Of a stretch of DNA of 64,000 nucleotides, positions 20,808 through 23,922 are shown piece by piece. The stretch comes from an uncultured Clostridia bacterium (lineage in GTDB: Bacteria > Bacillota > Clostridia > Oscillospirales > Ruminococcaceae): positions 60,217 to 124,216 of the forward strand of contig CANQUJ010000004.1 in NCBI GenBank assembly GCA_947627005.1, given 5' to 3'. Numbering within the stretch: the stretch's first letter is position 1; each line of letters opens with the position of its first letter. The translations under genes were made by a program, and so were the position numbers. The notes beneath the pieces were generated by a model. That model did no database searches and was not told the DNA's origin. It saw nothing but the letters and a program-made list of their open reading frames with translations.

Positions 20808-21029
20808 TTACCCTACCTCAATCTCCGTCCCGATTTCCTCTATCGAAACTATATCCCCTTGCCGAAGCTTTTTTCCGCGCTGCGCGCAGACCTCGCCGTT
20901 CACCTTGACCTTCCCGCTTTGGATTATCTCCTTCGCGATGCCGCCGGTCTCGGTTATCCCGGAAAATTTCAAAAGCGAATCCAGCTTGATGTATTCCCCG
21001 GAAATTTCTGTCTTTATCCTCTCCATCAT
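20808..21029 (-). CDS. rlbA: S4-domain protein RlbA/YaaA
   Basis: A 73-residue protein with an S4 RNA-binding core: IKLDSLLKFSGITETGG, then IIQSGKVKVNGEVCAQRGKKLRQGDIV. It is the small conserved gene always found between dnaN and recF; the Bacillus protein is linked to ribosome assembly. Its ATG at 21029 overlaps the dnaN stop by 4 bases (ATGA type coupling). Confidence 0.87.
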   Translation of the reverse strand: MMERIKTEISGEYIKLDSLLKFSGITETGGIAKEIIQSGKVKVNGEVCAQRGKKLRQGDIVSIEEIGTEIEVG

Positions 21030-22135
21030 TCGCTCCTAAGCCTTACCGGCAGGACGAGATAGGTGTAATCCTCGCCTTTAAGGGGAACTATCTTCATCGG
21101 CAGGTTTCCGCCGTTCATCAAAAGCTTGATCTTGTCGTCGTTGATGACCTTAAGCGGGTCGAGCAAAAACTTGCAGTTAAAGCCTATCTCGATTTTCGGG
21201 CCGGAGATATCCGCCTCAATCTCGTCGTTTATCTTTCCCAAAGAGGTCTGGCAGTTAAGTTTAAGGCTTCCGCTGTCAAAAAGGCATTTGACCGGGCTTT
21301 TAATCCTCTCGTTGATGAAAAGCGAAGCCCTTTCAAGACATTCGATAAGCTCTTTTTTGTCGATGATAACTTCGGTGACGCTGTTTTGCGGGATCGACCC
21401 GCGATAGTTGTGGAACTCGCCCTCCAAAAGTCTCGAAAATACGGTATACCCAGAAAAGTCGAATACTACCTGTTTTTTCGTGACTCTCACGGCGCACTCC
21501 GACTCGTCCTCGTCCTTCAAAAGTCTCGACACCTCGAGCAGCGTCTTCGCCGGAACGATGAATTTAAAGTCGCCGTCCTGCTTGACCGTCTCGGTCCTCA
21601 CCGCAAGCCTAAAGCCGTCTATCGCGACAACGTTAAGTCTGTGGTCGGATATTTCAAAGAGCTCGCCCTTTAAAATCGGCTTGGTGTCGTTTGTCGATAC
21701 CGCGAAAACAGTCTCGGAAATGAGGCTTTTTAATACCCCCTGCGAAAGCTTTATCTCGTCGCCCTCGCCGAGCTCCGGTATAGCGGGGTATTCGTCGGCT
21801 TTGATGGCGTTTATCGTATACTGCGCCTTTCCGCCGATGATGTTGACGGTCATATTTTCAAGCGCTTCCATCTCGATTTCTTCGGACGGCAGCCTTCTTA
21901 TCATATCCGAAAATCTTTTCGCGTCGTTGACTATGATCTCGCCGCTGTCGGAGGATACCACCGGGATAGAGGTGTTTATCCCTATTTCAAGGTCGTAGCC
22001 GGTCATAGTCAGAACCGAGTCGCAAAGCCTAAGCTTAACTCCCTCTAAAGCCGGAATCGCGGATTTATCCGCTACCACCTTCGAGACGTTCACCAAAGCT
22101 TCGTAAAAAGCCTGTTTGCTGCAAATAAATTTCAT
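21026..22135 (-). CDS. dnaN: DNA polymerase III beta subunit (sliding clamp)
   Basis: A 369-residue three-domain clamp. Recognisable segments are MKFICSKQAF, the first-domain LEGVKLRLCDSVLTMTGYDLE, and the C-terminal LPMKIVPLKGEDYTYLVLPVRL that matches the family's final MPM-R/L region. It encircles DNA and tethers polymerase. The gene follows the oriC-like gap downstream of dnaA and has an AAGGAGGA SD. Confidence 0.96.
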   Translation of the reverse strand: MKFICSKQAFYEALVNVSKVVADKSAIPALEGVKLRLCDSVLTMTGYDLEIGINTSIPVVSSDSGEIIVNDAKRFSDMIRRLPSEEIEMEALENMTVNIIGGKAQYTINAIKADEYPAIPELGEGDEIKLSQGVLKSLISETVFAVSTNDTKPILKGELFEISDHRLNVVAIDGFRLAVRTETVKQDGDFKFIVPAKTLLEVSRLLKDEDESECAVRVTKKQVVFDFSGYTVFSRLLEGEFHNYRGSIPQNSVTEVIIDKKELIECLERASLFINERIKSPVKCLFDSGSLKLNCQTSLGKINDEIEADISGPKIEIGFNCKFLLDPLKVINDDKIKLLMNGGNLPMKIVPLKGEDYTYLVLPVRLRSE

Positions 22136-22545
22136 TGGTTGTCCTCCTTGTCAAGGCCGAGAGAATAAAGGTTGAAAACAAAATCACCGTCGGCCGGTTT
22201 TTCGGGAAAATAAAAGAATATAGAATATATATTTTACAGTATTAGTATTAGAGGCGGCGAAAAAGTTGAAAACTCATGGGGCGGCGGCTTTTATTCGCGG
22301 TTTGCGCTTCAACTTATTTTCAACCCGAATTTTTGAAATCTTTGAAAAGTAAAATCGGCTTTGAAAATTTGAAAGACGGTCGGTTAAATGTTAAAAACCG
22401 ATTTGAAAATTCGCCGCAGTTTAAAAGATTTTTTGTTGAAAGCTTTGAAAAAACCGGCCGAACGCCCGATTTCGACGTTTTTATTGTTGAAAACTTTGTT
22501 GAATCGTTGATAAATCCGCGATTTTACACGGTTTTATCACAATTT
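22136..22545. other. Putative oriC: dnaA-dnaN intergenic region with TTTTCAACA-like DnaA boxes
   Basis: This 410-bp AT-rich gap lies in the usual origin position. I see no perfect TTATCCACA box. Instead GTTGAAAA-type words recur: GGTTGAAAA (22170), AGTTGAAAA (22264), TTTTCAACC (22317), TGTTGAAAG (22434), TGTTGAAAA (22485), TGTTGAATC (22497) and CGTTGATAA (22505). The last three are nearly contiguous. An A/T-only-like tract at 22205-22250 is a candidate unwinding element. Read as boxes, the consensus is TT(T/A)TCAACA. Function is inferred from position and repetition. Confidence 0.75.
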
Positions 22546-23922
22546 TCACACCGTTTTAAGGTTGTTCATCAAATCCTCGACGGTTTCTCTAAGGTCGCCG
22601 TTCTTTTTCATCATTTCCTTGACGTCGGCATAGCTTATCGTCATAGTCGAGTGGTTTCTTCTGAATTCTTCTCCGATCGCGGTAAAGGACATTCCTTTTA
22701 CCTCGCGGACTATGTATATCGCGACCTTTCTCGCCAAAGAGATCTGCGCGTTGCGGTTTGCGGATCTCAAATCCTCGGCCTGAACGCCGAACGCCGCGCC
22801 GACGTCGTTTAAAATCCTTTCGACGGTGATCTCCGCGGGCTGAGAGTCGATCAAAGTCTCTTTTATAACCCTTTGCGCCATAGAGATAGAGGGCGATTCG
22901 TTAGAGAACATAGTAAGCCCTTTTATTTTGTTGACGGCACCCTCGAGCTGGCGGATATTGTTCTTTATTTTCTCGGAAATAATCCTCGCGACCGGGTCGG
23001 GAAGGTTAAGGTCCAAAAGCTCGGCCTTGCGCTTTACTATCGCCATTCTGGTCTCAAAATCCGGGGGCTGAACGTCTGCCTGAACTCCGAGGGCGAATCT
23101 CGTCTTGATCCTCTCTTCAAGCTTTTTTATTCTGTTCGGAGAAATGTCCGAGGTTATGACTATCTGCTTTCCGGCGTTGTAAAGCTCGTTGAAGGTGTGG
23201 AAAAATTCCTCCTGCGTCATTTCCTTTCCGGCGATAAACTGAATGTCGTCGACCAGCAAAAAGTCGGCCTTTCGGTATTTTTCGTGGAAGGAATAGGTGT
23301 CTTCGTCGGTGATGGCCTTTACAAGCTCGTTTGTAAAGCTTTCGCCGGTGGTGTATATAACCGTAAGATCCGGGAAATTTTTCTTGACTTCGTGCTCGAT
23401 CGCTCTTAAAAGGTGGGTCTTCCCGAGGCCGGAGTCGCCGTAGATGAACAGGGGGTTAAAGACGGTCCTCGAAGTCTGGTTTGAAAGGTTGTTCTTGCCC
23501 GAGACCGCGATGCAGTAGGCGTAGGCCAATTCGTTCGACTTGCCTTTTATGAAGTTTTCAAAGGTAAGCTCGTAGTCGCTGCGCTGGTGGTTAGAAAAAA
23601 GGGCCTCCATTCGCTTTTCGATTTCGGTAAAACCGTCTGTCGGCTGGTCGGCGGCCGGGGCGGGGGCGTTTTGGTTGACTACGAACTCGACTTCTACCGG
23701 AAATCCGAGAACCTGTTCAAAGGCGCGCTTAATGGTGTCTGCGTAAGCTTCTTCGGTGGTGCGGCGCATAAAGTCGTTAGAGGCGGCCAAAACCGCCACG
23801 CCGTTCTCGAATTTTTTGGCTTCAAGGCTTTTTATCCATTTATTGTATCCGACTTCGCTTACCTTCGGATCTGCCTGACATACGCGCTTTACGTTTTCAA
23901 AGAGTTCGTAGAACGAATCCAT
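22546..23922 (-). CDS. dnaA: Chromosomal replication initiator DnaA
   Basis: A 458-residue DnaA with domain I (residues 1-85), a linker rich in proline and alanine (NAPAPAADQ), an AAA+ domain with Walker A GDSGLGKTHLL (about 145) and Walker B FLLVDDIQF (about 205), and the C-terminal helix-turn-helix domain. The recognition loop reads RRNHSTM where most DnaA proteins have GRDHTTV or GRDHSTV, so the aspartate is replaced by asparagine. The SD is AGAGAGG before the ATG. Gene order rpmH-dnaA-dnaN is the standard Bacillota origin. Confidence 0.96.
   Translation of the reverse strand: MDSFYELFENVKRVCQADPKVSEVGYNKWIKSLEAKKFENGVAVLAASNDFMRRTTEEAYADTIKRAFEQVLGFPVEVEFVVNQNAPAPAADQPTDGFTEIEKRMEALFSNHQRSDYELTFENFIKGKSNELAYAYCIAVSGKNNLSNQTSRTVFNPLFIYGDSGLGKTHLLRAIEHEVKKNFPDLTVIYTTGESFTNELVKAITDEDTYSFHEKYRKADFLLVDDIQFIAGKEMTQEEFFHTFNELYNAGKQIVITSDISPNRIKKLEERIKTRFALGVQADVQPPDFETRMAIVKRKAELLDLNLPDPVARIISEKIKNNIRQLEGAVNKIKGLTMFSNESPSISMAQRVIKETLIDSQPAEITVERILNDVGAAFGVQAEDLRSANRNAQISLARKVAIYIVREVKGMSFTAIGEEFRRNHSTMTISYADVKEMMKKNGDLRETVEDLMNNLKTV

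Follow-up and report, generated by a model that had tools for sequence, protein, structure and literature searches.

Asparagine at DnaA residue 433 is associated with adenine at position 6 of the DnaA box in clostridial replication origins

In a comparison of about 275 replication origins, we found that Asn at the DnaA residue aligned with E. coli Asp433 is associated with A at position 6 of the DnaA box (A6; boxes with C at this position are termed C6). We read this link as a real bias and not as an absolute rule. The relation is one-way: Asp is found with A or C, Asn almost only with A, and A6 boxes are possible without Asn. As the best overall explanation we consider it probable that the window, i.e., the whole analysed stretch of 64,000 nucleotides, contains an origin with A6-type boxes, that residue 433 biases position 6, and that the box changed before the protein. 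The window comes from an uncultured gut bacterium of the Oscillospiraceae-type Clostridia and is situated at one end of contig C4; the genome measures 2.07 Mb. Its close relatives that bear names are Candidatus Faeciplasma and uncultured Clostridia of the rabbit gut, which NCBI places in Clostridia, Oscillospiraceae.

The dnaA-dnaN gap and its DnaA boxes

Around 22-24 kb of the window, rpmH is followed by the minus-strand genes dnaA and dnaN; the coordinates given in the initial annotation were correct (Table 1). DnaA is encoded by a single gene in this genome (one PF08299 match in G000) and is a bacterial DnaA with AAA+ domain, HTH domain IV and N-terminal domain I (three Pfam families above cut-off); its domain IV can be aligned with 8btg, 3pvp and 1j1v. 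GC skew had been proposed for placing the origin. The cumulative GC skew indeed has its minimum at ~24 kb, near the dnaA-dnaN gap, and the AT skew changes sign at ~24 kb as well. Elsewhere in the window, from 52 kb to ~62 kb, the AT skew is strongly negative (about -0.3), and the long ORFs of this region are mostly on the minus strand.

The gap is an oriC in the sense of an intergenic DnaA-box cluster between dnaA and dnaN near the skew minimum. The initial annotation had counted at least seven GTTGAWAA-type words; there are seven box-like words in all, but only five match TTWTCAAC/GTTGAWAA exactly, the other two being variants. Its claim that the canonical box is missing was borne out, as neither TTATCCACA nor TTWTNCACA (C at position 6) has any match in the 410-bp gap. 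The word TTTTCAAC occurs eight times in the 64 kb, four times inside the gap. When the gap was shuffled, TTWTCAAC occurred 0.06 times on average and none of 5000 shuffles reached the observed five. A6 words were present in every genus member sampled. At position 5, C is found in 5/5 exact boxes, and the T of the epsilonproteobacterial type is absent. Three relatives (loci L008, L009, L012) have much longer dnaA-dnaN gaps of 789-1275 bp; in L008 and L012 these hold several hundred extra repeat-like bases, which leave the unwinding module untouched.

Table 1. Features of the origin region, in window coordinates.
Feature	Position	Strand	Evidence or remark
dnaN, DNA polymerase III beta subunit	21026..22135	-	gene adjoining the gap
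oriC, the region between dnaA and dnaN, with A6-type DnaA boxes	22136..22545	.	410 bp; box cluster, nearby skew minimum
DnaA box TTTTCAACC	22170..22178	-	exact TTWTCAAC
AT-rich stretch beside trios, likely duplex unwinding element	22206..22236	.	sequence
Five DnaA-trios, CAG TAT TAG TAT TAG (5'-3' on +)	22237..22251	+	conserved in most genus members listed
GC-rich spacer, 12-bp, between trio and box	22252..22263	.	published spacer peak 10-13 bp (PMC8287927)
DnaA box TTTTCAACT, adjoins DnaA-trios	22264..22272	-	exact TTWTCAAC; position conserved in genus
DnaA box TTTTCAACC	22317..22325	+	exact TTWTCAAC
Variant box CTTTCAACA	22434..22442	-	box-like word
DnaA box TTTTCAACA, sole full match to TTTTCAACA	22485..22493	-	exact TTWTCAAC
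Variant box GATTCAACA	22497..22505	-	box-like word
DnaA box TTATCAACG	22505..22513	-	exact TTWTCAAC
dnaA, initiator protein, 458 aa	22546..23922	-	Pfam Bac_DnaA 6.4e-60, Bac_DnaA_C 5e-17, DnaA_N 1.6e-08
Codon AAC, Asn423 in loop RRNHSTM	22654..22656	-	aligns with E. coli Asp433, B. subtilis Asp413

The published basal unwinding system consists of a box, a 10-13 bp spacer and DnaA-trios with a middle A (PMC8287927; PMC10721633). In the window, the order toward dnaN is TTTTCAACT, twelve GC-rich bases, CTA ATA CTA ATA CTG and AT-rich DNA. This agrees with the definition of such a system by a DnaA box no more than 16 bp away from three or more NAN trios (here a 12-bp spacer and five trios). Most of the listed genus members have kept this layout of box, spacer and trios, often carrying two A6 boxes in tandem, e.g., TTTTCAACATTTCAACAGCCCCTACTACTAATACTA. 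Since an A6 word adjoins the trios in the published arrangement, the A6 words occupy the site of the functionally most important box of B. subtilis. The gap is a chromosomal origin with a well-formed predicted unwinding module, at which DnaA-dependent strand opening would occur.

Residue 433 and box position 6 across origins

The DnaA of the window has the loop RRNHSTM (residues 421-427). The Asp-to-Asn change pointed out in the initial annotation was confirmed, Asn423 aligning with E. coli Asp433 and B. subtilis Asp413; a conserved Asp at this site, a feature not strictly defining for DnaA, is thus replaced here. The form RNHST[MI] was found in 24/24 genus loci read, including the window's own. 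Compared with that of E. coli, the loop lacks one residue, and in length it equals that of M. tuberculosis DnaA; therefore, a short loop is nothing special. Residue 433 has been described as highly conserved in bacteria; in Clostridia, and especially in this order, N, H, S, T and K variants occur, and outside Clostridia it is nearly always Asp in our phylum sample. The dnaA of one relative (G023, contig C7, 9627-11272; L025, L161) is matched as two overlapping pieces and looks frameshifted, which is probably an assembly error because dnaA is essential.

Covariation of domain IV and boxes, an analysis suggested in the initial annotation, was assessed in the sample of about 275 origins using a phylogenetic model (PGLS) that allowed for sampling error and included GC as a covariate. 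Any TTWTC-N-ACA word was taken as a box, one mismatch being tolerated except at position 6; the region scanned was the gap, limited by dnaN starts placed with tblastn, plus 450 bp upstream. The pooled A:C counts at position 6 were 425:51 for Asn, 845:904 for Asp and 43:60 for His. With Asn433, the log-odds of A6 over C6 were shifted by +1.28 (s.e. 0.26) in the 275 origins, with a phylogenetically corrected LR of 23.7, a statistic matched by none of 1000 null simulations. The LR stayed at or above 18.0 after dropping any single one of 12 Asn origins, and was 18.3 without the window's whole clade and 13.3 without that clade and family f19 together. Strict boxes only gave an LR of 22.0 (raw A:C, Asn 80:6 vs. 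others 261:373). When the trio-adjacent box alone was considered, Asn origins had 33 A and 1 C, and Asp origins 33 A and 51 C; in five Asn cases the base was G, most of these coming from a degenerate proximal box. Over all boxes, G at position 6 (TTTTCGACA-like) was seen 24 times in Asn (RNH-type) origins, with about 7 expected, in part owing to the degenerate box beside the spacer.

None of the other box positions exceeded an LR of 3.8. For words of the dnaA coding region the LR was 0.9, and for a decoy word 3.3. GC content itself has a strong effect on A6. Base composition alone was nevertheless rejected as an explanation, as the effect holds with locus or gap GC as covariate and the coding and decoy controls lack a signal of this size. 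A blind scan of 759 domain IV residue indicators ranked Pro373 first, Asn433 second (LR 17.0) and Ala435 third. Ala435, present in RDHAT loops, is associated with A6 independently of Asn433 (LR ~14-15). Many Asp DnaAs have mostly A6 boxes, and thus other factors matter, GC content and Ala435 among them.

Residue 433 was also read blindly, using two 92-aa queries differing only at this residue (bit difference ~+2.3 for Asn, -2.2 for Asp). In this way, six further Asn genomes of the class and one of a different class were picked out ahead of any look at their boxes. Those with enough boxes had A:C counts of 4:0, 10:0, 3:1, 4:3, 5:0 and 2:5; the genome of the other class (G545, Asn by bit difference) has five A6 and zero C6 boxes. 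Clear exceptions, with Asn and more C6, are L297 (KNHTTVMH, 2:5) and L086 (QNHSS, 3:5). Comparison with the nearest Asp sister in the 12 parsimony origins of Asn gave nine for and three against the association, a one-sided sign test (p ~0.07) that is only suggestive. Ser or Thr at 433 goes with A6 and no C6 (13:0, 4:0, 4:0 and 1:0 in L342, L343, L057 and L069), which fits a switch, although three usable origins are few. His at 433 was rejected as an equivalent switch, as it has no A6 preference (beta 0.08, s.e. 0.28).

Order of change and alternative readings

The initial annotation had proposed that the C6-to-A change of the box and the Asp-to-Asn change of the loop may have co-evolved. Across the class, the two are indeed linked (PGLS LR 23.7), but a paired change in this lineage is not supported. 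Asp relatives with the same A6 cluster, named beforehand as counter-evidence, were looked for in sister genera and turned up in four groups with RDHSTM (L032-L034, L157, L098/L100, L095), whose clusters are A6-only or nearly so. Strict co-evolution in this lineage is consequently rejected. Family members with the canonical GGRDHST loop are often mostly A6, too, e.g., L108 (9:1) and L113 (10:2). In a tree of DnaA without domain IV, some deep branches of which have low support, the 52-origin clade of the window has a support of 1.0. Its outermost branches carry Asp, with A:C counts of 27:4 and 15:1, followed by Asn branches with 141:10 and 186:5, and most RDHSTM lineages branch outside the Asn lineages. 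Since Asp lineages with A6 branch below those with Asn, A6 preceded Asn in this clade. In the window's lineage, the box changed first and the DnaA residue later.

An unlikely alternative is relaxed constraint, in which A6 boxes and substitutions at 433 both accumulate in fast-evolving gut Clostridia with no specificity link. The wide variation of residue 433 in this order (D, N, H, S, T), set against nearly constant Asp elsewhere in the phylum sample, and the frequency of A6 boxes with Asp would suit this explanation. However, the equally derived His433 loci have no A6 preference (beta 0.08, s.e. 0.28), and the effect is seen at position 6 only and persists after phylogenetic and GC correction. 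A little less likely still is that position 6 is set by another domain IV residue linked to 433, e.g., Ala435, Met437/Thr438 or the one-residue shorter loop. The independent association of Ala435 (LR 14-15) points this way, as does the window's clade, which has HSTMT and is A6-only with either Asp or Asn. Yet the Asn effect stays when Ala435 and Thr435 are modelled as well (t 4.2) and is found outside the HSTMT clade (LR 18.3), and in M. tuberculosis DnaA a loop of this short length occurs together with Asp. That the A6 words are another repeated signal or AT-rich background and not DnaA boxes is very improbable: they are predicted boxes and only one of them is the full TTTTCAACA, but they adjoin conserved DnaA-trios at the published spacing, recur in all genus members sampled and far outnumber what shuffling yields.

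Proposed mechanism and comparison with known systems

Returning to a bias exerted by residue 433, we propose that DnaA binds A6-type boxes (TTWTCAAC) and that the trio-adjacent box at 22264-22272 would anchor a DnaA filament, which would cross the GC-rich spacer onto the DnaA-trios and open the adjacent AT-rich DNA. Residue 433 would bias the base accepted at position 6, Asp tolerating A or C and Asn (in few cases Ser/Thr) almost only A. Boxes would have turned A6 while DnaA still had Asp, Asn would have followed once the C6 boxes were gone, and Asn433 may now prevent their return. Chemically, the amino group of C as well as that of A could donate a hydrogen bond to Asp, and Asn would pair best with A. 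In the literature, the contact of residue 433 is placed at base pair 7, not 6 (PMC8235120), and the recognition helix reads TnCACA (PMC5742627); taken together, residue 433 should lie near position 6. What the data show directly is the layout of the origin and its conservation, the sequence of changes on the DnaA tree and the association after phylogenetic correction; box binding, the causal role of residue 433 and the hydrogen-bond chemistry are what we infer, and indirect effects are possible. More tentatively, and with about as much room for doubt as for belief, residue 433 may be a natural specificity switch for position 6 (Asp, A or C; Asn/Ser/Thr, A only) that was crossed about a dozen times in Clostridia, usually toward A6-only origins.

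DnaA and its box are commonly regarded as almost universal, a conservation for which domain IV was proposed in 2024 as a broad antibacterial target (PMC11511705). A repeated one-way link between a residue and a base would be a natural recognition rule of the initiator. If true, there are bacteria whose initiators no longer make good use of the textbook box, and an essential protein-DNA pair could change without loss of function, box first and protein later. Origin prediction in gut Clostridia would improve, as searches for TTATCCACA miss A6 boxes.

We found no open-access paper reporting TTTTCAACA as a DnaA box or linking residue 433 with position 6, subscription literature being outside the scope of the search. 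A known precedent comes from Epsilonproteobacteria. The epsilonproteobacterial DnaA shares with the window's a lineage-specific box and changes at the helix 5 N-terminus of domain IV (PMC5043019, PMC8235120). There, however, the altered base is a T at box position 5, the variable residues are 435, 438 and 439, and Asp-His is kept (PMC5043019); in the window's lineage, position 6 and residue 433 are affected. C. difficile oriC likewise has a clostridial DnaA with boxes and trios near dnaA, but, unlike in the window, all base-contacting residues including Asp433 are kept and the boxes are described as TTWTNCACA (PMC7561715). The basal unwinding system of B. subtilis, also beside dnaA, has in common with the window a co-oriented box, a GC-rich spacer of usual length, trios and AT-rich DNA (PMC6669920, PMC8287927, PMC10721633). 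It differs in its boxes, which are TTATCCACA in B. subtilis and TTTTCAAC(A) in the window, and in the residue at the start of the recognition helix, which is Asp in B. subtilis and Asn in the window.
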